Positions 12,201 to 63,429 of a stretch of 64,000 nucleotides of DNA are shown here, piece after piece. The position numbers were made by a program, and so were the translations under genes. The notes below the pieces were generated by a model. The model was not told the origin of the DNA. It was given only the letters and a program-made list of their open reading frames with translations, and ran no database searches. Source of the DNA: an uncultured Bacteroidales bacterium. Lineage in GTDB: Bacteria > Bacteroidota > Bacteroidia > Bacteroidales > Paludibacteraceae. How positions within the stretch are numbered: position 1 is the stretch's first letter; every line of letters starts with the position of its first letter. Where the stretch lies: contig CAIWCC010000222.1 of NCBI GenBank assembly GCA_903911085.1, forward strand, positions 1-64,000. The letters run 5' to 3'.

Positions 12201-13797
12201 TCGTGGTCTTATTTAAAGGTGCCCAAACGATAGTACTTCCGGCAGCAGACACCGCAATTTTTCCAGCATATACAGAATCAGCTACGACATAATTACCCAT
12301 TTTTGTCCAAGTTACAGCATTATCGGCCGAATACATTGCTCCATTTGCCGGATTTGACGTTGCTCTTACTACAATGTTTGGATTAAGCTCTGCAGCATCA
12401 AGACAGGGATTATTAGCACCACCGGCCGGAGTGAAACGAGTACCAGGCAAATCCACATTAACATGTCTAAAACCTGAATAATCACCAATTGAATGAATTA
12501 ATTGGGCACCTGATTTTGGCGCAATAACATCGAAAACCACAGATTCATTGAGATTTTTCGACGAGAATTTAAACGTAATTGCTTTACCCAAATCGTAATC
12601 ACCCAAATTATCGCAACGATATACCCCATAGCCCGTATTGAAGAAAAAACGATTTGAATTAAAAGGATCAAGTCCGATATTTGATACCCAGTGTGGATTA
12701 ACGCCTGCTGCATAGCTGTAGCCCTGATAATCCAATATAACCAGTGAGCTTGATGCCAAATCTGCCCATGTAGTTCCACCGTCTTTTGTGCGCCAAATAC
12801 GCTCACCGTAACTACCGGTTGCAGCCCATTTTACTCCGCTTGTATTTGTGATTAATATATGGTTCGGATTGCTCTGATCAATGGCAATGCCACAATATCC
12901 ACTGTTGTGGATTGCCTGCGGAGTAATATCAGCAGCAGTTTTAGTTGCAAGATTAATTTTGTAAAAGCCGCCTAATGTACCGTAGCCTGCTGGAGATTCG
13001 AGATTGCTGAATGTTGAATACAAAAAACCGTTAGGAGATAATTCTCCGCGCTGAGGCGCACTGGTAGTTGGTAAACCTGTAATTGGCTGCCATGTAGCAC
13101 CAGCATCGTTGGAAATATACATATTGTTATTTCCTGTTCTGGTAAGTCCGGCAATAAGTCGCGGGCTTGTGCTTCCATTGGTTCCGGTAGAAGGATCTAC
13201 CACTACAAAGGAAACACGCAGCACTTCGCCGGTTGTTACGGTTACGGCTGTTCTGAATGCGGTTATTTCTGTCCATGTTTCACCGTTATCCGCACTTTTC
13301 CACAAGCCGTTTTTGTAAGTGCCACAATACAACACAGCCGTATTATTCGGGTCAATACAAAGTCGCTCACCACTCGGACTTGCCACTCCACTAATCTGAA
13401 ATGGAGTTACAAAGCGTTTAAATGTTTTTCCATAATCATCCGAACGCATAATACACGAAGGCGGATTGATATACAAACCAGCCATCATATATATCCGTCC
13501 CGGTTTTTTCGGGTCGGTACACATGGCCTGTATGCCTTGCAACGTCCACTCGGTTTCAGTCATCCAGTCGCTGATACGTGTCCAGCTTTTAGTGGCTTCT
13601 TCCCAACGATAAGCTCCACCCACATCGGTGCGGGCATACAGCACATCTTTTTCGGTTTTGGAATAGCAAAAACCAGGAACAAATCCTGTTCCTCCGGTAT
13701 CCACCGATTTCCAACTGTGTTTTTGAACAAATTGAGCGAAACTAAATACACTTAATATAAGTGCAAAAGATAGAGAAAGAACTTTTTTCGTGTACAT
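9277..13797 (-). CDS. GH74 xyloglucanase-like protein fused to a beta-helix domain, T9SS tail
   Basis: I start this gene at Met 13797 (MYTKKVLSLSF, a normal signal peptide) rather than at the ATG at 13908, whose 37 extra residues would overlap the next gene and precede the leader. The 1506-residue product has a GH74 tandem propeller (about 25-735) with BNR-type repeats. The catalytic aspartates are conserved in ARTDVGGAYRW (Asp58) and IGDYSGFRH (Asp439). From about 742 to 1430 it changes to repeats typical of a right-handed parallel beta-helix (TTIQAAYNSIPD, then many N-x-I and G-x-T turns). The last roughly 70 residues (VAIFNSSIIIRGY to VAKVIVN) are a T9SS sorting domain. GH74 enzymes cut xyloglucan backbones. 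Confidence 0.88.
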   Translation of the reverse strand: MYTKKVLSLSFALILSVFSFAQFVQKHSWKSVDTGGTGFVPGFCYSKTEKDVLYARTDVGGAYRWEEATKSWTRISDWMTETEWTLQGIQAMCTDPKKPGRIYMMAGLYINPPSCIMRSDDYGKTFKRFVTPFQISGVASPSGERLCIDPNNTAVLYCGTYKNGLWKSADNGETWTEITAFRTAVTVTTGEVLRVSFVVVDPSTGTNGSTSPRLIAGLTRTGNNNMYISNDAGATWQPITGLPTTSAPQRGELSPNGFLYSTFSNLESPAGYGTLGGFYKINLATKTAADITPQAIHNSGYCGIAIDQSNPNHILITNTSGVKWAATGSYGERIWRTKDGGTTWADLASSSLVILDYQGYSYAAGVNPHWVSNIGLDPFNSNRFFFNTGYGVYRCDNLGDYDLGKAITFKFSSKNLNESVVFDVIAPKSGAQLIHSIGDYSGFRHVNVDLPGTRFTPAGGANNPCLDAAELNPNIVVRATSNPANGAMYSADNAVTWTKMGNYVVADSVYAGKIAVSAAGSTIVWAPLNKTTRVCDVSDRATWYLCQGIPNNLKPVSDKVFDGKFYATNGTSLYYCEDGGLTFKSFALANYGIPSGAGSYGNIRTFPTHEGEVWLPLYERGLYCAKFSNAVPQFTKIPNVISCKSVGFGAPKPGSGQAASIFISGTVKTSSFNGIFRSDDLGATWIQVNDNEHLFGGIGQLIGDPNIYGRVYMTTGGGLGVIYCDVNGEIINGDIETPATTIKVGAAQTYTTIQAAYNSIPDNISASTLIEIQADYAPESEIYPIVFAKKANASEQNYILIRPAADVQKELSTSKAIMSFNGACYVKIDGRANGIGSTSGLTLSNTSTASGAKTIEFINDSRYNTVRYCTVMGSGKLSTSGTIVIGTTTGTTARGGSAGSFTGSGNLYNTIDHCKIANASAGLPYNAIYLKGTPTYNNEGTMISNNSISNFFTDATDVKSCGVFNDLDSHTTQISGNSFYQSETRVTSGGGLIYPVYINSAGAISSITNNIIGGNNELGTGVTTIQSSGTARFTGIYINALKGGTTITMSGNKISGIDLTSYSPGNGTDGVLGGIVVKGGNLSAAVATNPNEISQLTLRYGVSISASNGLCGLSYNFGGGSSIPGYLKVNNLNAIPTGANANSIAGKVIGLSSNGSYGGSCTAVEVHDLSCGNETSSAAHQIIGISHYTGSNQKNTVERNSVYNLNAISSGVSAVYGIAAGAGTNTLTLKNNMICLGNNMSSGASITGIYKNTTGADVIIHNSVYIGGTVTSTTQNTYAFMRDVATDNIVTGNVVSNNIFVNKRSGGSGGKHYVLSTKLASDYSLSYPITCNYNCYDKGNGTNNVFGLAATTDYDFATWKTTTKYDANSISADPVFADATNVTTPNLSIKQNATIVDAKGNASYTATDDHFGSIRSGLTPCDMGAFAYIYDPKAAIVDLKEDQLQVAIFNSSIIIRGYAGKAIHIFSIDGRLIKSTLLSSDNEMIRLKQGCYIVRIENRVAKVIVN

Positions 13798-13888
13798 TGT
13801 TAAGTGATTTTTTAAATTGAGAAAATTGAAAATAAGAAAATAAATAAAAGACTTTTGATTAATTTCATAATTAACACAATATTTTAAA

Positions 13889-15892
13889 CTAATAAAACAA
13901 TATATCATTACTTACAGTTGAACGCACACCCCCAAGAGGTTTCCACTCTAAACGCAGGCCATCGCCACCACCATTTTGAAAATAATTAATTCGCAATTTA
14001 TGATAACCTTTACCTAAAGCTAAGTCCATAAATTTCTCATCCATGCCGTGTGCACCATCGTTATTTAACCTTCTATCAGCAATTGATAAATCGCTTCCAT
14101 CATCCGAGCTAAGATAAATACGATACACATTGGTTTCGGGAACAAAAACATATCCTTCGAAAACAAAACCATAATACAATGGTTGCGTTTTGGGGCTTAG
14201 TTCTATATTACTTAGCACCCCCTGACTTTCGGGTGTAAGAGTATCAAAATCGGGAAGTTTTGTCCATGTGCCACGAAAATACTTATAGCTTATCCCTTTT
14301 TTGACATTTCCTACAGGAATAGCGGGAATTGGTTTCTCCACTTTGTAATTGCATGATGTAACCGCCGAAACAGCTTTGTTGCCTATATATGATTGTGCCT
14401 TAACCGTTATTTCATTTGTTGTTTCAATGCTAACATTATTAGTTGCTATTGGCGAATTAAGAGTTGGATTGTCACCATTTGTAGTGTATCGAACCACTGT
14501 ATTTGGCATATAAGATGAAGCATTAAATACAACTTTATTTGTAAAAACACTTGACTCCGAATGAATAACTGGTGCATTATAAACTAATGGCTTATCCTTT
14601 ACTTCCAACACAATAACTGTTACATAGTTATCCTTTTTTACATTTGTCAGAGATATATTTATATAGGGCTGATTCGGGTCAACAAGCAACAACTTATTTG
14701 GCTGAGAAAGCGGATATGCTTTTAATATTTTATTTTGCAAACCCGCGAGCATTAATTTTCCGTTTGCAGGCCAATCAAAAACATGCAGGTAAATGTACGT
14801 CTTGCTTTCAGTTGTCCTTACAGTTGCTTTGCCCCACTTCAAATTCAAGAACGGACTTGCCGTTGTGCAGTAAATTGCTGCGCTATTATTTTTCATCCAA
14901 TTACCAGCATCTCGAAGATTATTGGCAGCAGTAGCCGGTACAATTCCTTCGGGTGTAGGACCTACATTCAATAAATAGTTGCCCCCTTTTGACGTTATAT
15001 CGCATAGACTTTGTATAATCATCAGAGGCGATTTATACACAGTATCATACTTGCTGTAACACCAGTTGCTTGTAGTTGTCATGCATGATTCCCAGTTTTT
15101 ACCTGCAATTCCATTATCTGGTATGAAACATTCAGGCGTTTCAAAATCGCCTTCAAGGCCATCGCACAAGCGATTATTCATAATTAGATTGGGATAATTT
15201 TTTGTTACTGCAAGAAATTTGGACGCTATTTCTTTCGTTATTTCTGCAGGTGTGTCCCACCATATAATATCGGGAGAAAAGTTTGTAAGCAATTCCTTTA
15301 CTTGTGGCAAAGCTACTTTATCAACATATTGATTCATTGTCTGTTCAGCTTGAATAGAATCCCAATGTGGGCCATATATGCCACCTCCGGCATGACTCCA
15401 ATCTTGACCCTGTGAGTAGTAAACTCCAAATTTCAAACCTTTTTTGCGACATGCCTGAGCTAATTCAGCCACAATATCTCTTTTAAATGGTGTTGCATCA
15501 ACCACATTAAATGGGTCGGATGATTTGAACAACGCAAACCCTTCATGATGTTTCGAAGTAATAACCACATATTTCATACCTGCATCCTTGGCTATTTGAG
15601 CAATACTATCGGCATTATAGCGTATCGGATTAAACTTATTTGCCATTGATTTGTAGTCAGTTACAGGGATTTTCAGAAAATTTTCTATCCATTCAGGACA
15701 AAATGTAATTCGTTTTTCTTCCCATTCTCCATTTAACATGGTGTACAAACCCCAATGGATAAACATACCATAACGAGCTTCAGTCCACCATTGCATCTTG
15801 GTGCTTTCAACAGTTTTCTTCTGTTGGCTACTCAAATTTACTGAAATTATCAATAAAAACAGTATTACTTTATTTATTTTATTACTTCTCAT
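13889..15892 (-). CDS. GH29 alpha-L-fucosidase with PA14-like C-terminal module
   Basis: This 667-residue protein has a signal peptide (about 1-23). The GH29 barrel spans about 33-360: ARYGMFIHWGLY, SKHHEGFALF near 113-122 and DIIWWDTPAE, in which Asp213 is the likely nucleophile. A hexosaminidase-C-like domain (RYTTNGDNPTLNSP) follows near 440-530. A PA14-like module near 540-665 contains YRIYLSSDDGSDL and GYHKLRINYFQNGGGDGLRLEW, a carbohydrate-binding-type fold. The architecture is the same as the gene at 30574, so the two are paralogues. It would remove alpha-L-fucose from side chains. It is 21 bases downstream of the next GH29 gene. Confidence 0.92.
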   Translation of the reverse strand: MRSNKINKVILFLLIISVNLSSQQKKTVESTKMQWWTEARYGMFIHWGLYTMLNGEWEEKRITFCPEWIENFLKIPVTDYKSMANKFNPIRYNADSIAQIAKDAGMKYVVITSKHHEGFALFKSSDPFNVVDATPFKRDIVAELAQACRKKGLKFGVYYSQGQDWSHAGGGIYGPHWDSIQAEQTMNQYVDKVALPQVKELLTNFSPDIIWWDTPAEITKEIASKFLAVTKNYPNLIMNNRLCDGLEGDFETPECFIPDNGIAGKNWESCMTTTSNWCYSKYDTVYKSPLMIIQSLCDITSKGGNYLLNVGPTPEGIVPATAANNLRDAGNWMKNNSAAIYCTTASPFLNLKWGKATVRTTESKTYIYLHVFDWPANGKLMLAGLQNKILKAYPLSQPNKLLLVDPNQPYINISLTNVKKDNYVTVIVLEVKDKPLVYNAPVIHSESSVFTNKVVFNASSYMPNTVVRYTTNGDNPTLNSPIATNNVSIETTNEITVKAQSYIGNKAVSAVTSCNYKVEKPIPAIPVGNVKKGISYKYFRGTWTKLPDFDTLTPESQGVLSNIELSPKTQPLYYGFVFEGYVFVPETNVYRIYLSSDDGSDLSIADRRLNNDGAHGMDEKFMDLALGKGYHKLRINYFQNGGGDGLRLEWKPLGGVRSTVSNDILFY

Positions 15893-22467: not shown

Positions 22468-24990
22468 TTAGAATTTTATCAATTTAGTAATTTGAGTTTC
22501 GTGCGAAATTTTATCTTTGAGTTCCAAGATGTAAGTTCCTGAGTTTAACTTATCGCCTAAGCTTGCCGAACCAAAAATTACTCCGCTGGCAACCGTAACA
22601 CCAGAAATATTTATGATTCTATATGACAAAGTTTTTTCTGTTAGAATATTGAAAGTGACATGAAATTGACTATTACCAATAGTTGCCAGATTTGTTTCGG
22701 ATACAGAAATTTTTTCCACACCACTTGATGTGTCAATATCACCATAAATCAATCCTATTCCAGAATTTCCAAAATAGAATCTTCCATACACATTCATGTC
22801 GCCAACCATTACGCCACGACTTATTACACCACCAAATTGAGATTTTTCGTTGGTTGCTCTCACCCAAGTTGATCCATAATTGTCGGACCGGTAAGTTTGA
22901 TTCAAAGCCGTTTCGCCCACAGCTTTGCCATACGCAAATATTGTGGGATTGGTTTTCCCTGGTGCAGGTTTTCCCCAACCGGCTCCACCACAGGTTGGAA
23001 TTTGAGTAAGTTTGGTGTAACTTGCACCATAATTGGTAAACAAATACAAACCATTGGTACTTGCCCATCCCAAAAATTCACCTTGTACCAAAGGATTTAC
23101 CCGTATTCTGGTATTTATTGTAATAGGTGTATTATTTGTTTTAAAATCATACGATTTTCCATTCCATGTATAAACATAAATGGCTGTTCCTGTACAGAAA
23201 TAAAACGTGTTTGGTGCATTCTTATCAGCTACAATTGCTGTATTTATATTGTCGGAATAGGTAAAAACCTTCCAAGTTACCCCTTTATCCATTGTATAAA
23301 AATTACCATAATAAACCACGCCACCTACTTTCCAACTAGTTGACCAAGCTATAGTAGTTCCATCGGCACTAATAGCAGCACAACCATACACAGGTGGTTG
23401 ATCTTTTGAACCTAAAGTAGCAGGCATTGCAGGAGAAAGAGGTAATTTATCTTGTGGAACGCCAGTCCAAACCGCCCCATTCTGATCGGAATACATCACA
23501 GAACCTGCCACTCCACTCGCCACTCGGTTACTACCAGCTCGAATTAACATCTTGGTTGTGGGCGAATAGTCGACCGATGAGGTAATTGCCTGAGATGGAT
23601 TATAACGGATACAAGGCTGTGAAAAATCGGAATAAACACCGCCAGAAATATCACCCAAGGCCAACATAAATTTCCCTCCGGGTACCGATGTAACATCCAT
23701 TGTAATAGTCTCTTCCAAATTTTTCACATTAGCATACCAAGTAGAAACAATTGCATTAAAATTGTCGGTTGTGTATACCCCATTTCCAGAATTTACAAAA
23801 ACTCTATTTTTATTAAACGGATCAATTTCAATATCCCACGACCAGTGCATATTTCCATTTTGAATAGCTGCATTTGTATCATATCTTACCAACGAGTTGG
23901 CCAACAGACGTTTACCCCAAGTAATTTTTCCAGGAGCATCAATAGTGCCCTTTATTACATCATCACCCCAAGATGTTGTTCCCGATATCCAGGTTTGCGC
24001 TGTAGAGAAAATTTCATTGGTGGTCAGGGCTATAATTGTGGGAGTAGTCTTATTATCAACCGTAATACCTGACATCGGAACATTTTCGGTAGGTGATATA
24101 TCCTCCCATGTTTCAGAGATTACATCGTAACGCCAGACACAAGCCTTAGGAGATGTGCCGTATGTAACATAGATTTTACCACCAGCATACACACTATGCT
24201 GAGGAATATAATTTGCTGGTGGAGTCACACTTCCTGCTCCTTTTTGAGCCGATATGGGATTCCAAGTATTACCATAATCTGCTGATAAATACATGTTAGC
24301 AGAATCAATTGGAGCAACTTTATCAGCTCGCGAAATACCAGCATAAAGTGCCATAGTTGCTTCACCTTTTGGGGAAAATTCAGGTAAAAAGTCAACAAAA
24401 AGAATTCCGTTTCCTGAAGTATTGGAAATCAAAGGAAATGTAGTGACTTTGTTCCAAGTGCTACCGTAATCAGAACTCTTCCAAAGTCCAGTAGCTCTTG
24501 AACCGAAAAACAGGATATTTCCTTTATTGGGGTCAACAATCAATCGTTCGCCGCTCCCTTTTTGGGGCCCAGAATTACCCAATGCTTTAAATTTCGAAGT
24601 CACATCAATTACTTCCCAAGTATCGCCATAGTCGGTTGAGCGCATTAATCCAGTAAAACCACTTTCAAAATATCCTTCACCAGCAACACAATACACACGG
24701 TTGGGCGATGAAGGGTCAATAGCCAAACTCTCAACCGATAATAATCCAGGACGTGAAATGGCAAAAGAAAGACTTTTCCAACCTTTTTCAGCTTCCACCC
24801 AACGAAATGCACCTCCGACATCTGTGCGCGCAAATATTAAATCTTTTTGGGTAGGACAAGTGATTATGCCTGACAGACAACCACCCCCACCAAAAGGTAC
24901 AGTTTTAAATACATGTGGCTGATACATTTGGGCCGAAATACCAAGTGAACAAATCCAACAAAAAAGTGATATTATTAAGCGTGTTTTCAT
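22468..24990 (-). CDS. GH74 xyloglucanase-like protein with T9SS tail
   Basis: This 840-residue protein has a signal peptide (1-20). It is a tandem seven-bladed propeller of GH74 type with BNR motifs such as STDYGDTW and SSDYGSTW. The catalytic pair is conserved as Asp57 in ARTDVGGAFRW and Asp447 in LALGDISGG. The final roughly 70 residues (FNILTEKTLSYRIINISG to HETQITKLIKF) are a T9SS sorting domain, which implies export and surface attachment or release. It is shorter than its 1506-residue relative at 9277, lacking the beta-helix block. Together the two suggest a beta-1,4-glucan backbone substituted with xylose. Confidence 0.9.
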   Translation of the reverse strand: MKTRLIISLFCWICSLGISAQMYQPHVFKTVPFGGGGCLSGIITCPTQKDLIFARTDVGGAFRWVEAEKGWKSLSFAISRPGLLSVESLAIDPSSPNRVYCVAGEGYFESGFTGLMRSTDYGDTWEVIDVTSKFKALGNSGPQKGSGERLIVDPNKGNILFFGSRATGLWKSSDYGSTWNKVTTFPLISNTSGNGILFVDFLPEFSPKGEATMALYAGISRADKVAPIDSANMYLSADYGNTWNPISAQKGAGSVTPPANYIPQHSVYAGGKIYVTYGTSPKACVWRYDVISETWEDISPTENVPMSGITVDNKTTPTIIALTTNEIFSTAQTWISGTTSWGDDVIKGTIDAPGKITWGKRLLANSLVRYDTNAAIQNGNMHWSWDIEIDPFNKNRVFVNSGNGVYTTDNFNAIVSTWYANVKNLEETITMDVTSVPGGKFMLALGDISGGVYSDFSQPCIRYNPSQAITSSVDYSPTTKMLIRAGSNRVASGVAGSVMYSDQNGAVWTGVPQDKLPLSPAMPATLGSKDQPPVYGCAAISADGTTIAWSTSWKVGGVVYYGNFYTMDKGVTWKVFTYSDNINTAIVADKNAPNTFYFCTGTAIYVYTWNGKSYDFKTNNTPITINTRIRVNPLVQGEFLGWASTNGLYLFTNYGASYTKLTQIPTCGGAGWGKPAPGKTNPTIFAYGKAVGETALNQTYRSDNYGSTWVRATNEKSQFGGVISRGVMVGDMNVYGRFYFGNSGIGLIYGDIDTSSGVEKISVSETNLATIGNSQFHVTFNILTEKTLSYRIINISGVTVASGVIFGSASLGDKLNSGTYILELKDKISHETQITKLIKF

Positions 24991-45068: not shown

Positions 45069-45956
45069 TTATAATTTTTTATTGAAAACATAAATGGTAG
45101 ATACTTTTTTGGCCACATAGCAATTCTTAATACCCCAAACGATTTTATTGTTTTTGTCAATTTCAAACATCTTGTATTGTGCGGTGTCCTTGGTATGCCC
45201 TTCCCAGTTGGCAATCAGCAAATTGCCATTTTTAAGTTGACAAACTTCGGCTACAAAAAGCATTTTGGCATCGGTTAATGAACTGTTATCTGTAGTTTTA
45301 ATGATTTTTCCCTGTTTTGGGTCAACCTCTACGAATTTGCTGGCATCGCCACAGGCCACTAGCCAGTTACCGTTTTTTAAAATTTTCACTGCAAATGGAT
45401 TTCCACCTACTTTAATGGTTTTAAGCAAATCTCCTTTTTTGGAAATTTCCACCACTTCGCCTTTGTCCATATAGGCAATTAGGTAAGTACTTCTATCAGT
45501 TGGTGTTATTTGTCTGAACTGACCATGCACACTGTTGATGCCAGTATTTAATCGTAGCACATTGATGGAATCGCCTTGTGGATTTAGTTCAATTATTCGA
45601 GAAGGTCTGCCACACATGGCAACAAGGTAATTGCCATTTTTTAGTTCGGTGGCCGTAAAAACCTCTTCGCCCGGCAAAGCTTTAAAATCCCATATAACAG
45701 TCTGGTTTTTAAATGATATCAATCGAGCACCTTTTTTGTAGGCATAAAGCACATTGCCTTTTTTTGTGATTTCGGCATCATTGCTTTCTTCTCCTTTACC
45801 TAGCAGGTGTTTCCATACTATTTGCTGCGTTTTTTTTTCGATAATACGCAGGTCGTTATTGCCACATCCGCTTATTAATAATTTTTCCTGTGCAAAAGTG
45901 CTGCTTACATTCAACAAAAGTAAAGCAGCAAAAATGAGTTTTATATGTAAATTCAT
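45069..45956 (-). CDS. Secreted small beta-propeller protein (PQQ/WD40-like repeats)
   Basis: This 295-residue protein has a signal peptide (1-22, ending STFAQ). It consists of about six repeats with the pattern LKNGNYLVA / LKNGNWLVACGD / LKNGNLLIANWEGH, each followed by a short strand and a turn with V-E-I/E-L. This is a small propeller similar to PQQ-repeat or arylsulfotransferase-like sensors. No catalytic residues or CXXCH motif are visible. It lies 60 bases downstream of the large cytochrome/SUMF1 gene and is probably the last gene of that operon, so it may be a binding partner of those redox proteins. Function is unknown. Confidence 0.75.
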   Translation of the reverse strand: MNLHIKLIFAALLLLNVSSTFAQEKLLISGCGNNDLRIIEKKTQQIVWKHLLGKGEESNDAEITKKGNVLYAYKKGARLISFKNQTVIWDFKALPGEEVFTATELKNGNYLVAMCGRPSRIIELNPQGDSINVLRLNTGINSVHGQFRQITPTDRSTYLIAYMDKGEVVEISKKGDLLKTIKVGGNPFAVKILKNGNWLVACGDASKFVEVDPKQGKIIKTTDNSSLTDAKMLFVAEVCQLKNGNLLIANWEGHTKDTAQYKMFEIDKNNKIVWGIKNCYVAKKVSTIYVFNKKL

Positions 45957-46016
45957 TGATTTATAGGTGATTTATAATGCCTTGATTTTACAATCAACAT
46001 TATTAATTTTTAATTA

Positions 46017-49000
46017 TTAATTGTCTTCTTCGTCTTCAATAATAATTCTAAATCCAACGTTAAATACTTTTTGATATTCGCGGTATGGTGTGCGGAACGA
46101 AGCGGTAGAGCGGAATGGCCGATCGTACCATGAACCCCCGCGGGCAACGCGTTTGCTGTTGTTCGGTTCTATAGCATTGCGACCATCTTCGTCATTATAA
46201 GGGTACGATTTGTACGACGAAAGTGTCCATTCCCACACGTTGCCGTGCATATCGTATAAATCCCAAACATTGGGAACGAAACGTCCGCCTTTTTCAGATA
46301 AAAAGCTACCGTCATTAATAACCGTATCTCGGGGCACCCAGTCGTCGTATTTGTTCGGATTCTTAATCAAGCGTACCATTTCATAGTTTTTCTCGGCGGT
46401 ATTAATTGCAAAATCGCGAAGGCGGACATCCCCCAAATTTGCAGAACGAGAGAAATCGCTACTCAGGTCGCCAAACCAAAATGGTTTATTGCTACCCGCA
46501 CGACAGGCCCATTCCCATTGCGCTTCGGTAGGCAGGCTACATTTTAGTCCGGTTTGCTTCGAGAGCCATTTACAATAATCCATTGCTTGTTGCCACGATA
46601 CACGTACAGCTGGTAATTCGGGAGCATTTACAGAGTAACATTTTTGTCCGAATTGGTAGCCGTGCATATCTTCTGAACGGGAGTCGTGTGAAGGGTCAAA
46701 CAGCCTGAACTGCTCATTTGTGATTTCGAGCTGACCAATCCAGAAACTTTTCTTGATTATGGTATTGGTCATTGGCATTTCGTCGGGTTGCAAAATGCTG
46801 CCCATGATAAATGAACCTGCCGGAATGTGTATGAAGTTCAATACCACGTTATCTGATAAACGGATGCTCTTTTTTATTTGTCCCAATGCTAATTGCATGT
46901 CGTCAGCTTGTTTTCTTTCAAACGGCCAATTGGTAGCAACTGAATCTCCTTTTTGTACTTTTGAAGGCGTTGGAATAATCGGATTTGTAGTTATTTCCGG
47001 TTCGGGCAGACTTTCTTGTTCTTCGATAGAAAGTCCAAACAAGCCACAAGTTTTATTTCTCAAATCGATGGCATATTGTGAACGTTCATAACCTGGAATA
47101 CTTTTTCGTGTGCCATGAAACGGTGCGTTAAAGTCAATCCAACATGCCAGTTTTTCAATGTCGGCTGGAGTGAGTTTAACACCATAATGTCCTTTGTTGA
47201 GCATTTGCATCAACTCTGTTTGGTCCGCATGAAATTCCATTGGAGTAAGCATGTGTAAATCGCTTTCGATACCCGGGCGACGAACATAGCGATGCAGGTT
47301 GGCGTACGAAACGGTAAATTGACCACCAACACCCTGACTTGCCGAACCACTAATTTTCGACGACCAGTCTTTGATTTTTTTATCGCCTTTTAGATATGGA
47401 ATTTTCGGATTTGATTCGTTGTGACATCTTGCACAATTAACATCAAGTACCGGTTGTACCTCGTGACGGTAACTAAATCCTCGCGCTTTGCCATACCACT
47501 CTTTTATTTCCTGTGGTTTTTTTCTGGCTGCCATACTTGGTTTTGGCATTGGAATGGTGTTTCTCGATTCGTGACAGCCGATACACGAAACCGCTTCGCC
47601 GGGCATTCCGGTAAACCAACTGCGCATTAGTTGCAACGCTTTGCCATCCTCGTCCAATGGTTGTATAAATATCGGTTTATTAGCAGGAATAGTGAACATA
47701 GCAGATCCATCGGCCTCTACATCCACTGTGCCAAGGATGCGTTTTATATCCCATGGCCCATCCATTCCAATTGAACCAACTAATCCACCCTGAGCAAGTG
47801 TCCCAAAACTATAAGACCCAATACGAAGTTTTTTTACAGCACCTTTTGGAATGCCTTTTAATCCATCTCCGGTATAAATATCTTGTATGAAAACAGTTGC
47901 GGTTTTCGAATCAGGTTTTATACGATCGGGTATAGTTAATGGTGTTTTGCGTTTTTCCATAAGAGCAGGTTCGAGGTATGCAACCCCTTCTTCTTCTTTG
48001 ATAAGAGTCATATTTCCATTTGTATCAACAAGATAAAGCCCCCAAAGAGAATTTACCGAAGGTTTTACGGCCACCACCACGTATTTGTCACTTAGCGGAT
48101 AAGGTTGCATAAACATTGGGTAAATACCATCCGGGAAACGGTCGCGAACCAATGGTTCTACCTTGCGGCCGGGATAAGGAATTTCGCAAACCACACCATC
48201 TGCTTCCTGACGGCCTTTCATTGGGTCGATAATCATTAATCGTCCGCAACGGGCTACACTGTGATGCCCTGAAGCTACTGCCACAAAAGCCGTAGGATGA
48301 TTGGGTATTGGGCGCGAGCCAAAAAGCGAAGTGGGGAAATACGAATTACTGCCATAATAGGCTAGCTGACTGGTTCCATCGGGGTTCATCGTGAACATGA
48401 TGCGCGAATTGGAGTGGGCCAAATCGGCGTATTCCCAACGTTGATAAAGTATTTGTCCATTGTTCAACACTACCGGTCCCCAGTTACTGTCCTGGTCGAA
48501 AGTTAATTGGCGACTAGTTTTTGTTTGTGGATTGTATTGAAAAAGTCCAGACATTTTATGTCCTCCGTAAGTACAAGGCAACCCAAGGAATGTGGCTGTG
48601 GAACAGAAAATGATGCGATTGTCCGGAGTATAACATCCATCAAAGCTGTCGAAATCCGTGTATGTGTCTGGCGTAACCTGAGTTAACGTGTTAGTTACTG
48701 TATTTAACTCAAAAATTTGCCAATGGTTATTGGTGCCAATGGATGAAAACAGCAATCGCTCACCGTCAAAATGTGGTTCTGGGTCGGCAATAATGCGACC
48801 TGAAAGAGGTTTGAACAATGTTTTTTCTTCGAGTTTTCCATTTTTCCCACTAATAATTACAAATTCATTTGTCCAACCATTCACCGGATTGGGAATTTCG
48901 GAGTTGTTCTGAAAGTTGGACGGACCAACACCCAAATCACCATTCATTGCCCAGCGCGCTTTGTCGCCAAGTTGACGGCGTACAGCAACTATTTTTTTAG

Positions 49001-49331
49001 TATCAATAAGCGGGTTTTTTAGTAATAGCTCATCAATTTTCTTTACCAAAAGTTCTGCTTCAGCAATGGCTTTCGAATCGCCCGACTTGATGTTTTTGAT
49101 TAAATTGGTTTTACGTAAGTCGTAATCGGCAACTATTTTATCTACTTCTTGAGTTCTGAATTTGTCAGGAGCCGTTTTTTGTAAATCGGTTATTGCAGCA
49201 TTCAACGATTTAGATGAATACCAATTCAGACGATTTATCAAGTCTTGTGGTTTGGCAGTGGCAAAGCATTCAGCACCAATAATCAGCAGGTACAACAATG
49301 CAACTATACCTTTCATGTTTCTTTGTTTCAT
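46017..49331 (-). CDS. HZS-alpha-like/cytochrome/SUMF1 fusion protein
   Basis: This 1104-residue exported protein has a signal peptide about 1-24, and an alternative Met at residue 6. Residues about 150-480 are a TolB/PD40-type propeller (DPEPHFDGERLLFSS, WQIFELN) like the middle domain of hydrazine synthase alpha. Two CXXCH haem-binding motifs follow, CIGCH at 583-587 and CARCH at 633-637, in a cytochrome-like segment to about 740. Residues about 832-1100 are a formylglycine-generating-enzyme/SUMF1-type domain (FIHIPAGSFIMGS, WIGQLEITNEQF, LPTEAQWEWACRAG, HGNVWEWTLSS, ARGGSWYDRP). Such proteins occur in Planctomycetes and Bacteroidota with no known role. It is 25 bases from the RidA-like gene. 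Confidence 0.85.
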   Translation of the reverse strand: MKQRNMKGIVALLYLLIIGAECFATAKPQDLINRLNWYSSKSLNAAITDLQKTAPDKFRTQEVDKIVADYDLRKTNLIKNIKSGDSKAIAEAELLVKKIDELLLKNPLIDTKKIVAVRRQLGDKARWAMNGDLGVGPSNFQNNSEIPNPVNGWTNEFVIISGKNGKLEEKTLFKPLSGRIIADPEPHFDGERLLFSSIGTNNHWQIFELNTVTNTLTQVTPDTYTDFDSFDGCYTPDNRIIFCSTATFLGLPCTYGGHKMSGLFQYNPQTKTSRQLTFDQDSNWGPVVLNNGQILYQRWEYADLAHSNSRIMFTMNPDGTSQLAYYGSNSYFPTSLFGSRPIPNHPTAFVAVASGHHSVARCGRLMIIDPMKGRQEADGVVCEIPYPGRKVEPLVRDRFPDGIYPMFMQPYPLSDKYVVVAVKPSVNSLWGLYLVDTNGNMTLIKEEEGVAYLEPALMEKRKTPLTIPDRIKPDSKTATVFIQDIYTGDGLKGIPKGAVKKLRIGSYSFGTLAQGGLVGSIGMDGPWDIKRILGTVDVEADGSAMFTIPANKPIFIQPLDEDGKALQLMRSWFTGMPGEAVSCIGCHESRNTIPMPKPSMAARKKPQEIKEWYGKARGFSYRHEVQPVLDVNCARCHNESNPKIPYLKGDKKIKDWSSKISGSASQGVGGQFTVSYANLHRYVRRPGIESDLHMLTPMEFHADQTELMQMLNKGHYGVKLTPADIEKLACWIDFNAPFHGTRKSIPGYERSQYAIDLRNKTCGLFGLSIEEQESLPEPEITTNPIIPTPSKVQKGDSVATNWPFERKQADDMQLALGQIKKSIRLSDNVVLNFIHIPAGSFIMGSILQPDEMPMTNTIIKKSFWIGQLEITNEQFRLFDPSHDSRSEDMHGYQFGQKCYSVNAPELPAVRVSWQQAMDYCKWLSKQTGLKCSLPTEAQWEWACRAGSNKPFWFGDLSSDFSRSANLGDVRLRDFAINTAEKNYEMVRLIKNPNKYDDWVPRDTVINDGSFLSEKGGRFVPNVWDLYDMHGNVWEWTLSSYKSYPYNDEDGRNAIEPNNSKRVARGGSWYDRPFRSTASFRTPYREYQKVFNVGFRIIIEDEEDN

Positions 49332-49356
49332 TTTTTATCTTGTATAAGGATGATTT

Positions 49357-50514
49357 TTATTCCATTATGGTAACAACTCCCTCAATTTCAACCAGTAAGT
49401 TTTCACGACAAATATCACCGAGCAGGTAAACAGATGGTATATTGGGATATTTTTCTGTAACAATTTCTTTAGCCTTTTCATAATAACCTGCTTCTTTTAA
49501 GTAAACCCGAAGTGATTTCCACTCCATTTTTTTAATGTAATCGGCATTTGTTGAAAGCAAATTATTATTTAAAATTAAGAATTCAATATTCTCCAAGGTG
49601 TTTGTTGTTTGTTTTGATATACCTATATTTTCCAAACTCTCCTCTCCACGAATAGCGGCTGTTCCCGAAATATAAACTAGCGTTTCGGGAATTCCACTTA
49701 TAATTTTAGCTCGTTCAAATTTTGGTGTAGTTGGCGCACTATTTTGTTTTATATTATTGTAAAACAGCACATCTGCCGAATAGTTATGCGCTGCGGTTTG
49801 CAATTTATTGTCAAGCGAGTGTATTTCTACTGATTCATTTTTAGGCTTTACGGCAAATAAGTCTATCACCACACGGTTGGTGTAAGTTCCAATTCCGGTG
49901 GCCGACGGATAACCATTAGTCCACTTAGCGAGCCCATAAAAATGCGATCGTGCATCGTTAAACTCCTGATAATGTTGCGTGCCGTCGGTTATTTTCGTTA
50001 TGTAAGGAATGTAATTCCATTGGCGTACAATTGAGTCTATTGGCATATTTTCGTGTTCAAATATTGAAGCTATCTTTTCAAAAATATGTTTCGACTGTTC
50101 ACCTATCGACTGTTGACTATCGTCGGACATCAGACCGCCTATCGACAATTTTTTTACATTATCATTTTCTAGTACAATGTAATTTATATCGTTAAATGAC
50201 TTGTATAATATTTTTATGTCCGACAAATTGGAGCAACTATGCACCTCCAATACCAAGGCACTGTTGCAAAGTGGTTTCTGACAAACATAGCTAATTACAG
50301 GAGTCTGTTCACCAAATCTCTGCGTTACTTTATGTTTTATAATGTTGAGTTCCTCAATATAACTTTGGGCATTTTCTGATAAACCGAAAAAAACAAAACG
50401 TAATGGTAGCTTATCATCCAAACTAAGCTGGTTGATAATGGATTGCACAGAGTTTTCGAAACAGTTTTCTGTTTCGGCTGTGTAATAAGTAATGTTTAAA
50501 TCAAATTTACCCAT
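49357..50514 (-). CDS. Cytoplasmic chorismatase-like/RidA-like protein
   Basis: This 385-residue protein has no signal peptide. The N-terminal two thirds resemble the FkbO/Hyg5 chorismatase group (WNYIPYITKITDGTQHYQEFNDAR near 166-189, then GYPSATGIGT near 199-208). The last roughly 130 residues have the layout of the linked YjgF/RidA fold (PETLVYISGTAAIRGEESLENIGISKQT, VYLKEAGYYEKAKEI, VYLLGDICRENLLVEIEGVV). Known chorismatases hydrolyse chorismate; in this context the substrate is unknown. It lies between two exported cytochrome genes with gaps of 6 and 25 bases, so it is clearly in the same operon although it stays in the cytoplasm. Confidence 0.75.
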   Translation of the reverse strand: MGKFDLNITYYTAETENCFENSVQSIINQLSLDDKLPLRFVFFGLSENAQSYIEELNIIKHKVTQRFGEQTPVISYVCQKPLCNSALVLEVHSCSNLSDIKILYKSFNDINYIVLENDNVKKLSIGGLMSDDSQQSIGEQSKHIFEKIASIFEHENMPIDSIVRQWNYIPYITKITDGTQHYQEFNDARSHFYGLAKWTNGYPSATGIGTYTNRVVIDLFAVKPKNESVEIHSLDNKLQTAAHNYSADVLFYNNIKQNSAPTTPKFERAKIISGIPETLVYISGTAAIRGEESLENIGISKQTTNTLENIEFLILNNNLLSTNADYIKKMEWKSLRVYLKEAGYYEKAKEIVTEKYPNIPSVYLLGDICRENLLVEIEGVVTIME

Positions 50515-50520
50515 TTTTTC

Positions 50521-52323
50521 TTACAGCGAATTTACATATTCGACAAGTTCTTCAATTTCTGTATTTTTTAATGATATTGAGTCACGTATACCGTGTTTGT
50601 ATTTTGTAAATACCTCATTTAAAGTAGCAGCACTTCCGTTAAAAAGATAGGGTGCAGTACGCCAAACTTCTGATAGAGTGGGAGTATCCCAGCCTTTTTC
50701 AAATTCAATATCTTTGCCTATTCGGTACATTTGTAAATCGGTATGATATTCGCCAGAATGACAATAATTGCATCCAATACGGTTGTAAACTGCTTTGCCC
50801 GCAATTACTTTTGTCGATAATTTGCCATTTACCAAGTACGGACTTGGAACGGGTTTAAGGCTTCTCAGGTAGTTGTCAACACACTGCGCTTTTTCCTCCG
50901 GAATGTCATAAAACTGAATAAGTTTATATCCTTTTCGAACCGCAAGTTCTGCATTGGCACGAATGCCAGAAATCATACTGGGAGGTGTTACGTGTGAAAG
51001 CAGTAAACTTTTGCAATTTTTCGGATTCCCCATTCCATCGTTCATTAAATCCCAGTTCATGCCGTCGGTACGTGCCTCACCAGGGTGACAACCGCTACAC
51101 GATTGCCAGTTTTGAAAACAAAAAGATGCATCGTTGAAGAATCTTTCGCCTTTTTGTTCGCTGGTTTCAATCCTGTTTTTCAGTAACCCTATTGCTTGTA
51201 TCGTTTTATTTTCTAAGTCCAGAATATTAATTGTGTCCGAAAAATAAGTTGGAATAATGGCTTTATTTCCATAAACGATAAAATTTCGTGGTCCATTGCC
51301 AGTAAGTGTTATTCGTTCTCTAATTTCATATAAAAAATTGAGGTCGTATGATAATGAACTTTTGTCGGGATAATTTTTGAATTTTTCGATAAATTTTTCC
51401 AAGTCTATCACGCTTATTTGGTGCGTGCCATATTGTGTCACCAGAATTTCCTTAAGTGTACAAGCCACTCCCCACAAACCTCCGGCTCCCATTTCGGGTT
51501 CGTCGAGCAGCACGGCTCCCTCAAAAGCTTGATTGGCAATGTTTACCACGCTCATGGCACTGGTGTTCATCCAGCCTTGCTGAATCTGACTGGTTGGTAC
51601 CTGAAACCGTCCCAGGTTATGTACAACCAGAAGATATTCGCCGTTGGCAGTCAAACACAATGATTGTACAGCGTTGCTTCCGTTGGCAAGTTGAATATCT
51701 TTTGTTTTAGCGAATTTTTTGATGTCAATTACTGATACACACGAAGCCACGGTATCCACATTGGCCTGCTGGGCAGGAAGATAGTTAGCCACAAACAGAA
51801 ATTTTCCGTCTTTACTAATTGCCAATGAACGGGGTTCGCGTAGCACTTTTACTGTACGCGTAACTTTATTTGTTTTACAATCTACTTCCGAAACGGTATT
51901 GCTGAACTGGTTACAAACATATATTTTGCTAAAATCGCTGTTTGGAGTTGGTGCAGTTGCCCCCGAGCCCATTGGTATTGAACCAACTTTTTTATTTGTT
52001 TTTAAATTGAAAACATGCAGCATCCCACGTTGTTCAAATGTGGTTACATACAGCATATTGTTGCTCACAGCTATACCCGTTGGAATTTCGTCAAACTGCC
52101 AGCTGCGGAGTTGCTTGCTGAAATCTGGTTTGTATAAAACAACAGATTTTGTACCTTTTTGCGAAAGAAAAATCCCATAATTGTTCGAGGCTTTTATATC
52201 GGTTATAAACAATGGAGTACCTGAGTAAGTGTCTAAATTATCCTTTGTAAGGTTAAATGACACCAATGTTACTGATAGTAATATTACCAGCAATCCCCAG
52301 ATATGACTCTTATTTTCAATCAT
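50521..52323 (-). CDS. YncE-like propeller fused to a di-haem cytochrome c peroxidase-type domain
   Basis: This 600-residue protein has an N-terminal membrane anchor or signal peptide (about 8-26). Residues about 50-380 are a YncE-like surface propeller (KIYVCNQFSNTVSEVDC, SLAISKDGKFLFVANY, SVIDIKKF, GPRNFIVYGNKAIIPTYFSDTINI). Residues about 385-600 are of MauG/cytochrome c peroxidase type, with two CXXCH motifs (CSGCH 409-413 and CNYCH 518-522) and a GWDTPTLSEVWRTAPYLFNGSA block that is typical of that family. It would act in the periplasm or at the outer membrane face as an electron-transfer or peroxidase-like enzyme. It is the first gene of its operon and stops 6 bases before the next start. 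Confidence 0.88.
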   Translation of the reverse strand: MIENKSHIWGLLVILLSVTLVSFNLTKDNLDTYSGTPLFITDIKASNNYGIFLSQKGTKSVVLYKPDFSKQLRSWQFDEIPTGIAVSNNMLYVTTFEQRGMLHVFNLKTNKKVGSIPMGSGATAPTPNSDFSKIYVCNQFSNTVSEVDCKTNKVTRTVKVLREPRSLAISKDGKFLFVANYLPAQQANVDTVASCVSVIDIKKFAKTKDIQLANGSNAVQSLCLTANGEYLLVVHNLGRFQVPTSQIQQGWMNTSAMSVVNIANQAFEGAVLLDEPEMGAGGLWGVACTLKEILVTQYGTHQISVIDLEKFIEKFKNYPDKSSLSYDLNFLYEIRERITLTGNGPRNFIVYGNKAIIPTYFSDTINILDLENKTIQAIGLLKNRIETSEQKGERFFNDASFCFQNWQSCSGCHPGEARTDGMNWDLMNDGMGNPKNCKSLLLSHVTPPSMISGIRANAELAVRKGYKLIQFYDIPEEKAQCVDNYLRSLKPVPSPYLVNGKLSTKVIAGKAVYNRIGCNYCHSGEYHTDLQMYRIGKDIEFEKGWDTPTLSEVWRTAPYLFNGSAATLNEVFTKYKHGIRDSISLKNTEIEELVEYVNSL

Positions 52324-52420: not shown

Positions 52421-52603
52421 AGAATAGAACGCGGATTTTCGCTGGTTTAGCGGATAAAAAACGGATAAGAAAAAATGCAAGCATTTTTGATTTATTTCTA
52501 ATGTCAATCCCGATTTATTGGGATTGATAATCCGTTTTGAAATCCGTAAATGATATAAAATCCGTAAAATCCGCTTCATCTGTGTAAATCCGCGTTCTAT
52601 TCT
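52421..52603. repeat. MITE-like element with perfect 18-bp terminal inverted repeats
   Basis: AGAATAGAACGCGGATTT at 52421-52438 and its exact reverse complement at 52586-52603 bound a 183-base AT-rich stretch with no gene. Inside are two perfect hairpins: AAAAATGC/GCATTTTT at 52471-52488 and CAATCCC/GGGATTG at 52505-52526. The AAATCCGCGTTCTATTCT end resembles interspersed intergenic sequence that I have seen in Bacteroidota genomes. No clear target-site duplication is visible. It separates the GH39 gene end from the cytochrome operon promoter and may also act as a terminator. Nothing else is seen in the 52324-52635 gap. Confidence 0.6.
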
Positions 52604-62406: not shown

Positions 62407-62451
62407 TTTTTTAATCTTATGATAATTATACAAAGCTTTAAATATCAATCA

Positions 62452-62483
62452 CAAAGATACAGCTATAAAAAAATTATCACAAA
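62452..62483 (-). promoter_or_regulatory. Bacteroidota-type promoter of SDR copy 2
   Basis: On the minus strand TTTG (62480-62483), a 20-base spacer and TATCTTTG (62452-62459) match the full consensus TTTG-N19-21-TAnnTTTG. The predicted transcript start is about 40 bases before the ATG at 62406. The region also lies in the divergent space before the AraC gene, so that regulator may bind here. On the plus strand TAAATTTG at 62508-62515 is a -7 candidate for the AraC gene, without a matching -33. Confidence 0.65.
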
Positions 62484-62556
62484 TGCTATTTTTGCAGATA
62501 ATAATACTAAATTTGCAAATAATTTCCAAATTGCCATTCTCAAAAAAAAATATTTG

Positions 62557-63429
62557 ATGTATATGAAATTAATGCACGAACAACTGAATATTATTGGAAA
62601 CAATACTATCAAAGTAAAATGGGACGATTTTCCACATTTTACTTTTCCATGGCATTATCACAATCAGTACGAAATAGTTTATGTATTAAAGAGTTATGGT
62701 AGAAGATATGTTGGTGATAATATCGAAAATTTTGCTGAAGGCGATTTGGTATTATTAGGGAGCAATTTGCCGCATTATTGGAAAAATGCGCCAGAATTTT
62801 ACGAGAATAACCCTAAATTGAAGGTGAATGCAGTGGTAGTGCAGTTTTCTCCCGAATTATTTGGGGGAAACATGCTCCAATTACCTGAATTTACTGCAAT
62901 GAAAACACTATTGAATAATGCCGAACGTGGGATAAAATTCAGTGGACTGCAAAACAAAACGATATGTAAAAAGCTGCTAAAAATTCTTCAACTCACAGGT
63001 TTCGAAAGATATATCGAATTGCTAAATATATTAAATGAAATGTCGAAACACACTCAGCACGAAGTACTGGCAAGTACTCATTTCGAAAAAAACACAACTA
63101 ATTATAGCGACAACCGCTTAAACAAGATTTTCACTTATATCAATTATAATTATACCGCCAAAATTGATATTCCTAGTTTAGCAAATCTTTCGGGAATGAA
63201 TGTAACTGCACTTTGTAGGTTTTTTAAAAGCAAAACAGGCAAAACTATTATGCAACACATCAACGAATTACGTGTTGGCTATGCTTGCAAACTAATGACT
63301 GAAAAGCAATTGCAAATTGCTCAAATTGCAACAGAATGTGGCTTTAACAACCTGTCGAATTTCAATAAAACTTTTAAACAATACACTTCGAAAACACCAA
63401 CCACTTACTACGAACTTACAAAAGAATAA
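62557..63429 (+). CDS. AraC-family transcriptional regulator
   Basis: I start at Met 62557 (MYMKLMHEQ); the earlier ATG at 62419 would add 46 residues that cross the divergent promoter. The 290-residue protein has an N-terminal cupin-type sensing domain (PHFTFPWHYHNQYEIVYVL, EGDLVLLGSNLPHYWKN). The C-terminal double helix-turn-helix of AraC proteins is SLANLSGMNVTALCRFFKSKTGKT and AQIATECGFNNLSNFNKTFKQ. Such cupin-AraC proteins usually sense a small sugar. Divergent to the SDR-GH29-GH95 run and the only regulator in the window, it probably controls that run, and perhaps copy 1 as well. Confidence 0.92.
   Translation: MYMKLMHEQLNIIGNNTIKVKWDDFPHFTFPWHYHNQYEIVYVLKSYGRRYVGDNIENFAEGDLVLLGSNLPHYWKNAPEFYENNPKLKVNAVVVQFSPELFGGNMLQLPEFTAMKTLLNNAERGIKFSGLQNKTICKKLLKILQLTGFERYIELLNILNEMSKHTQHEVLASTHFEKNTTNYSDNRLNKIFTYINYNYTAKIDIPSLANLSGMNVTALCRFFKSKTGKTIMQHINELRVGYACKLMTEKQLQIAQIATECGFNNLSNFNKTFKQYTSKTPTTYYELTKE

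Follow-up and report, generated by a model that had tools for sequence, protein, structure and literature searches.

A hydrazine synthase-like haem protein set encoded with a chorismatase in a Bacteroidales glycan gene run

The window analyzed here, a stretch of 64,000 nucleotides from an uncultured Bacteroidales bacterium of the Paludibacteraceae (contig CAIWCC010000222.1), carries on its minus strand a four-gene operon whose two large proteins together constitute, by sequence homology and predicted fold, a set resembling the alpha and fused beta-gamma subunits of hydrazine synthase (HZS). In operon order, the genes lie at 52323-50521, 50514-49357, 49331-46017 and 45956-45069, are separated by 6, 25 and 60 bases, and encode proteins of 600 (P600), 385 (P385), 1104 (P1104) and 295 residues (P295). 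The original prediction had placed four genes in this span, with these spacings, and had read them as a YncE propeller with a di-haem domain, a chorismatase/RidA-like protein, an HZS-alpha-like protein with a SUMF1-type domain and a small propeller. Our profile scans agree with all of these assignments, and the recognition of an HZS-like set goes beyond them. We propose, with somewhat less than even confidence, that the operon is a short version, placed in a glycan locus, of a system conserved in Bacteroidota and encoding a secreted, HZS-like c-type haem complex that would oxidize glycan-derived sugars. The proposal draws on homology, residue sets, gene order, co-occurrence and copy numbers; what we infer is that the proteins form a complex and are exported, together with the substrate, the reaction, the order of the pathway and the part played by the aromatic product.

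An HZS-like protein pair encoded with a chorismatase

P600 (50521..52323; this and the following features are on the minus strand) consists of a YVTN/YncE-type propeller of the seven-bladed type, followed by a di-haem part with two CXXCH motifs, gamma-I-like at residues 409-413 (51085..51099) and gamma-II-like at residues 518-522 (50758..50772). Both motifs are present in 66 of 68 family members. The NCBIfam model of the fused beta-gamma protein, hydrazine_BC, matched at 1.5e-25, far below the model cut-off. In PDB sequence searches, the propeller matched HZS beta (5c2v_B, 9.6e-17) and the haem part HZS gamma (5c2v_C, 7.3e-14); the sole better match, an archaeal surface-layer propeller, outscores HZS beta over the propeller alone. 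The predicted structure (predicted local distance difference test, pLDDT, 79.8) has 5c2v_B as its top PDB fold match (E 1.3e-22; template modelling (TM) score 0.84 by target). On this homology and model, P600 is a relative of HZS beta fused to HZS gamma.

From profile, sequence and fold, P1104 (46017..49331) was assigned as an HZS alpha-like propeller that bears two c-haem motifs and has a SUMF1-type domain at its C-terminus. It matches the HZS_alpha middle domain (PF18582, 3.3e-33; 47568..47843) and SUMF1 (PF03781, 9.8e-43; 46041..46835), and carries CXXCH motifs at residues 583-587 (alpha-I-like, 47571..47585) and 633-637 (alpha-II-like, 47421..47435), a pair found in 52 of 56 alpha family members. 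With the SUMF1 region excluded, residues 180-760 matched HZS alpha alone in the PDB (3.2e-10). Two HZS alpha chains are the best fold matches of the model (pLDDT 63.1), with E values of 1.3e-20 (5c2v_A) and 5.6e-20 and TM scores of 0.57 and 0.53 by target. As judged from sequence and model, P1104 is an HZS-alpha relative with a SUMF1-type tail. Formylglycine-generating enzymes have a catalytic cysteine pair; the pair is absent from the P1104 domain, where GGSWYDRPFRS occupies the Cys-bearing stretch, and formylglycine formation was rejected as its function. One long alpha protein contains an NPCBM domain.

P600 and P1104 share the subunit domain plan of the anammox HZS alpha-beta-gamma (PDB 5c2v), with a pair of c-haem motifs each in alpha and gamma. 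HZS is the top PDB fold match of both proteins, and beta-gamma precedes alpha as it does in anammox genomes (PMC12758564). However, the window proteins score below the cut-off of every NCBIfam HZS model, and key ligand residues differ. Haem alpha-I of HZS is ligated by Tyr591, four residues past the CXXCH histidine (PMC12607021, PMC12758564), whereas this place in the P1104 family, judged by spacing from CXXCH, holds Asn in 48 of 52 sequences, Lys in 3 and Ser in 1. At the place of HZS gamma His144, 65 of 66 P600 sequences have Ile (Ile451) and 1 of 66 has Val, next to a Met450 present in 66 of 66, and no P600 residue aligns with the gamma Cys165/Asp168 stretch. Also unlike HZS, the window system has a SUMF1 tail, and a chorismatase and sugar genes as partners. 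With the alpha-I tyrosine and gamma His144 missing, it is therefore not a hydrazine synthase, and that identity was dropped. Anammox-like nitrogen chemistry, in which hydroxylamine or an N-N bond would be made or used, perhaps on a chorismatase-derived aromatic acid, would be in keeping with counterparts of all three HZS subunits encoded in the anammox order, but the replacement of the tyrosine in 52 of 52 alphas and of His144 by Ile in 65 of 66 P600 sequences makes it highly improbable.

The family keeps invariant residues of its own, namely a PTSQxQQGWMNT loop, a TPPxMIxGIR motif and His715 of alpha, and thus probably acts on another substrate. The loop, a propeller insert of the PTSQxQQGWMNTSAxS type at residues 239-258 (51550..51609), was located by alignment to 5c2v_B, conservation and the model; it is conserved across 66 P600 sequences and modelled as a low-confidence loop between strands. 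It may be the counterpart, with numbering not matched, of the HZS-beta tunnel loop described in PMC12607021. His715, invariant in 52 of 52 alphas, is a candidate second ligand of haem alpha-II. The gamma His144 place is Trp in cytochrome c peroxidase (CCP) and MauG (PMC12758564), which have two CXXCH motifs in their di-haem domain, as does the haem part of P600. P600 matches the di-haem CCP/MauG family weakly (PF03150, 2.3e-4, under the Pfam cut-off); with Ile451 replacing the Trp (65 of 66), a plain cytochrome c peroxidase was rejected.

Related pairs have been described. In other bacteria, mainly Planctomycetota and a few others, co-located HZS-like alpha and fused beta-gamma proteins lack key HZS residues; they fall into clades I-III, where alpha lies upstream of beta-gamma and the neighbours are of the CRTAC1 type (PMC12758564). 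For Bacteroidota, that paper mentions only beta-gamma relatives, and "chorismat", "SUMF1" and "Parabacteroides" are absent from its main text. A wider HZS-like family with other substrates has been proposed (PMC10732223). No description of the cluster, of a Bacteroidales chorismatase or of the alpha-SUMF1 form was found in the open-licence literature searched, mostly at listing level. The core belongs to an HZS-like group already described; for the surrounding system, no described counterpart was found.

P385 (49357..50514) is, by domain scan, an FkbO/Hyg5-type chorismatase with a RidA-type region. It matches NCBIfam TIGR04444 at 6.5e-30 (104.5 bits, short of the 325-bit cut-off) and the Hyg5 structure 5ag3 at 1.9e-17. 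Two Gly, a Cys and the catalytic Glu mark the 3-hydroxybenzoate-forming chorismatase subfamily (PMC7170507), a set that we transferred to Hyg5 numbering through a constant offset of 9. G207, G284, C369 and E376 of P385 align with Hyg5 G173, G240, C327 and E334, and each is at least 95% conserved among 76 sequences; in FkbO, the first Gly is shared and Ala stands in place of the second Gly and of the Cys. By these residues, P385 is probably a Hyg5-type chorismatase with a predicted 3-hydroxybenzoate-forming activity. Hyg5-type (CH-II) chorismatases, with the same Glu and Gly, Gly, Cys set, have a natural-product cluster as their context, whereas that of P385 is a haem and sugar cluster, and the chorismatase is the least explained part of the system. 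It could act in a small pathway for a natural product or a quinone-like cofactor, with the haem proteins building or attaching the product and the glycan genes as bystanders. 3-Hydroxybenzoate is a precursor to several natural products (PMC7170507), and related chorismatases head other operons as well; nevertheless, no acyl-activating, polyketide or peptide-synthetase gene was recognized in the listed clusters, which were not searched systematically, and we consider such a pathway unlikely.

P295 (45069..45956) is a small, Mala_s_1-like propeller (PF22701, 2.7e-49). Like P600 and P1104, it has an N-terminal hydrophobic stretch that looks signal-like by eye, and all three proteins are probably exported. 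By eye, the N-terminus of P385 has no signal-like stretch.

Conservation of the cluster and its partners

Scanning one genome per species gave 434 chorismatase relatives, of which the best 80 by likeness to the chorismatase alignment were kept; loci being picked in this way, the counts are biased towards the present context. Among these best 80 of 434, 67 loci have P600, in 66 directly upstream of the chorismatase; the alpha region is present in 53, alpha with SUMF1 in 49, a protein of 192-250 residues in 63 and IclR in 43. The original prediction had set in advance that the idea of a system fails if the genes are never neighbours elsewhere. P600 and chorismatase are direct neighbours in these 66 of 80 loci, and chorismatase lies within 500 bases of 44 of 49 core P600 genes in a second sample described below; the genes thus form a conserved system. 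A one-off insertion was rejected because the operon genes recur as neighbours across many genomes. As for co-occurrence in the same order, the P600-chorismatase-alpha neighbourhood recurs, but the four-gene order of the window is unusual: P295 is found in 16 of the best 80 loci, before alpha in 15 of the 16 and not after it.

Partner families across 81 loci include IclR (44), CcsBA (42), DhaK (42), DhaL (26) and LsrF (22). The genes usually run in the order IclR, P600, chorismatase, the 192-250-residue protein, alpha, CcsBA, a 105-residue protein, DhaK, DhaL and LsrF; in an alternative order, the last four genes (105-residue protein, DhaK, DhaL and LsrF) stand before P295 and alpha. The single LsrF copy scanned scores 458 bits with the NCBIfam equivalog model of 3-hydroxy-5-phosphonooxypentane-2,4-dione thiolase, above the 297-bit cut-off. 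The 192-250-residue protein is a D-lyxose/D-mannose-isomerase-type cupin. Its profile, built free of known isomerases, matched 7nzo at 1.4e-19, and H122, H124, K132, E134 and H189 are identical in 12 of 12 rows; most copies shown look lipoprotein-like by eye. A tandem pair of lyxose-isomerase-like genes lies at L014 8573-9786 (G008), where the called open reading frames (ORFs) have no signal peptide. The 105-residue protein of the fuller clusters matched no Pfam or NCBIfam family, and its best PDB match is weak (E 0.48); a likeness to LsrG or VOC proteins was a guess by eye with no family match behind it and was set aside.

Judged from their sequences, the isomerase, DhaK, DhaL and LsrF likely represent a catabolic route in many clusters. 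In the Lsr pathway of autoinducer-2 breakdown, LsrK and LsrG stand alongside LsrF. The LsrF of a fuller cluster exceeds the equivalog cut-off for that pathway's enzyme, but in these clusters the partners are DhaK/DhaL and the isomerase-like protein. At L126 12539-16597 (G058), the alpha region is split over adjacent ORFs of 708 and 638 residues, in a cluster without chorismatase; the chorismatase of this genome sits on a different contig from its alpha region.

Thirteen of the 80 loci lack every queried partner, and in 10 of these 13 the next gene is CcsBA, of system-II cytochrome-c assembly. The loci with chorismatase then CcsBA and without P600 or alpha are L076, L078, L080, L081, L083, L099, L104, L109, L112 and L113. 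In a chorismatase tree of 84 rows, which took in 73 of the 80 loci, the label of chorismatase with CcsBA and without alpha changes at least six times on well-supported branches. Direct succession of chorismatase and CcsBA at 10 of 80 loci, as well as the signal-like N-termini of P600, P1104 and P295 seen by eye, would suit a device for respiration or for extracellular electron transfer, with the chorismatase product as a soluble shuttle and the haem proteins passing electrons out of the cell. We regard this as quite unlikely: 3-hydroxybenzoate itself is a poor redox shuttle, no multihaem conduit was recognized by eye in the listed clusters, where the search was not systematic, and the catabolic genes are left without explanation.

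Alpha paralogues and glycan loci

The window forms a single long run of 31 minus-strand genes, counting ORFs of at least 200 residues, and is rich in plant-type glycan enzymes. Pfam searches covered these 31 ORFs and a divergent AraC-type regulator on the plus strand (62419-63429), 32 proteins in all. The run encodes six glycoside hydrolase family 29 (GH29)-type fucosidases, three GH95, two GH97, two GH27-type, GH127, GH31, two GH43-type, GH39 and GH2 enzymes, mannonate dehydratase and two SDR dehydrogenases. The operon, flanked by stretches of 312 and 321 bases, stands between GH97 and GH95 genes downstream and GH39, GH43-type, GH2 and GH95 genes upstream, all on the same strand, so that the predicted setting between GH97/GH95 and GH39/GH2 in one orientation is confirmed.

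In a class sample of 295 genomes, not selected by likeness, PF18582 scored above its cut-off in 3 genomes, in one of them weakly (41 bits). Both strong genomes (that of the window and G182) have a chorismatase at most 4 kb away. Of 35 other genomes in the window's genus, 1 has the HZS_alpha domain. The second sample comprised 118 genomes from the family to which G182 and Parabacteroides goldsteinii belong; presence of the system in G182 guided the choice of the family but not that of its genomes, and the sample overlaps partly with the 80-locus one. Thresholds were at least 100 bits for alpha (103 rows kept, including forms without SUMF1, and 16 weaker rows left out), more than about 220 bits for chorismatase (61 rows) and at least 960 bits for beta-gamma (49 rows, with partial and second-type rows left out). 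One core P600 is present in 49 of the 118 genomes, and none has two; 42 of these 49 genes have an alpha within 8 kb. The core P600 occurs in 48 of 55 strong-alpha genomes versus 1 of the 63 remaining genomes; because the 118 genomes are related, a Fisher test of this co-occurrence is given no weight. Among the seven alpha genomes without a core P600, G383, G466, G436, G480 and G481 have a broken, partial or second-type copy, and G381 and G477 have weak matches.

The 103 strong alpha matches reach up to 8 per genome. P. goldsteinii (G065/G428; L143-L150) has eight alpha-type genes, six with SUMF1 and two without; that at L148, without SUMF1, lies beside a second, distant beta-gamma gene together with FGGY kinase, DeoC and ADH. 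At least three of its alphas, at L145, L147 and L149, are within glycan loci. Alphas located away from the core cluster frequently adjoin glycan genes. The SusC/SusD pair of a polysaccharide utilization locus, absent from the scanned window proteins, stands beside three alpha paralogues elsewhere (L141, L145 and L147 among 15 regions fetched, each confirmed by Pfam), accompanied by GH88 in L141 and GH92 in L147. The alphas nearest that of the window (59-62% identity) are at L137, L138, L139 and L149. P295 follows the window-type alpha in L138 and L149 and not in L137 and L139; in L138, GH106, GH95 and a fucosidase-type protein are next to alpha and P295, and a GH2-type gene is near them in L149. 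If alpha selects the substrate, one redox core with many alphas is what one would expect.

Up to eight alphas, some by glycan genes, suit many substrates better than one toxin, and so count against a protective haem enzyme that would reduce peroxide, nitric oxide or hydroxylamine in the envelope, with the placement among glycan genes reflecting co-regulation only. Such an enzyme could draw on the weak CCP/MauG match of P600 and on the proposal that HZS gamma is a nitric oxide reducer in anammox (PMC12607021). With Ile at the CCP/MauG Trp place in 65 of 66 P600 sequences, and with IclR, DhaK, DhaL, LsrF and the isomerase resembling catabolic partners, we find it decidedly doubtful.

Other features of the window were noted in passing. 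The stretch upstream of P600 (52324-52635) contains an inverted repeat of 12 pairs (52502-52529) and, by eye, several ACGGATT-type direct repeats; a Bacteroides-type promoter pattern was not found there. Consensus scans detected 18 promoter-like sites where 24.3 were expected, and 9 terminator-like sites where 7.8 were expected. The gap below P295 (44748-45068) holds a short open stretch that resembles, by eye, the C-terminal remnant of a lost gene. Large Sortilin/BNR-type repeat proteins are encoded at 9277-13908 and 22468-24990 within the glycosidase run, and one of them ends in DUF6383.

A proposed role in sugar oxidation

In the proposed sugar oxidation, P600 and P1104 would form the haem complex, with P295 as an accessory propeller. 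The adjacent glycosidases, in the window a set rich in fucosidases, would free a sugar that the complex would oxidize to a keto-sugar; oxidation would take place at C4, outside the cytoplasm, and the electrons would leave via the haems. Beta-gamma would be the shared redox core, and alpha with its SUMF1 tail the exchangeable, substrate-choosing part. In the fuller clusters, the D-lyxose-isomerase-like protein would turn the keto-sugar, by aldose-to-ketose conversion, into a 2,4-diulose, DhaK/DhaL would phosphorylate it next to the ketone, as with dihydroxyacetone, and LsrF, whose substrate is formally a 2,4-diulose 1-phosphate, would split the phosphorylated sugar to yield dihydroxyacetone phosphate and an acyl-CoA. 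As a small partner for the redox step, the chorismatase would supply 3-hydroxybenzoate or a closely similar product. This scheme of predicted steps, from C4 oxidation through the isomerase and DhaKL to LsrF, assigns a step to most of the conserved genes.

Several observations weigh against this role. The P1104 model is weak near the haem motifs, and some genomes carry a second beta-gamma type that is more distant. We know of no class of haem-only sugar dehydrogenase, and no electron acceptor turned up, although none was searched for systematically. Neither SusC nor SusD has a Pfam match among the 32 window proteins scanned. The predicted glycan link stands for several alphas, which have SusC/SusD or GH genes beside them, but not for the copies at L142 and L144, which adjoin no recognized glycan gene.

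Further points concern the chorismatase. PF18582 matched in 0 of 4 genomes tested that have chorismatase with CcsBA (G066, G068, G069 and G072). Six related chorismatases (L025 and L015-L019) head other operons, with DUF1549/1553 and DUF1501 proteins and, in the four operons not cut, a PPC protein of about 705 residues; no CXXCH occurs in these partner proteins, and the idea that chorismatase always accompanies haem proteins was rejected. One of the six is the second chorismatase copy of the window's genome (L025 2007-3164; G000:C113), and most chorismatase relatives in the window's genus are of this operon kind. The tree groups five of the six in a single nested clade and puts the remaining one, this second copy of the window's genome, on a long branch apart. 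Occurring without alpha and in six CXXCH-free operons, the chorismatase is not tied to the haem complex alone. This would be consistent with a product that serves several envelope systems, and also with an unrelated use.

In the window's genome (G000, 97.9% complete), LsrF, DhaK and the isomerase each have 0 matches. The downstream route in its proposed form therefore cannot operate in that genome, and the oxidative module with the chorismatase can occur without it. G008, of the same genus, has all three across two contigs. The window operon is a reduced edition of the system; if the sugar-oxidation reading is right, the oxidation products would be handled in this organism through other genes.

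Hydrazine synthase had seemed a unique invention of anammox bacteria; weak homologues, of function not known, have recently been found elsewhere. An HZS-like set now appears in cultured gut species such as Bacteroides cellulosilyticus (DSM 14838, L042, with a nearly complete cluster) and Parabacteroides goldsteinii within a conserved, partly glycan-linked cluster, and the chemistry of the wider HZS family is thus open to gene-deletion tests. Should the sugar-oxidation reading be true, haem redox chemistry, possibly with a chorismate-derived helper molecule, would be added to gut glycan breakdown. A bolder and unlikely reading is a new glycan-degrading machine of gut Bacteroidales in which one beta-gamma core would be served by interchangeable, glycan-locus-specific alpha-SUMF1 subunits, a dedicated chorismate-derived aromatic acid would be the redox partner, and keto-sugars would be fed into a lyxose-isomerase, DhaKL and LsrF thiolysis route that, to our knowledge, is not known for sugars. 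If that were so, hydrazine synthase would be an offshoot of a sugar-oxidizing family.

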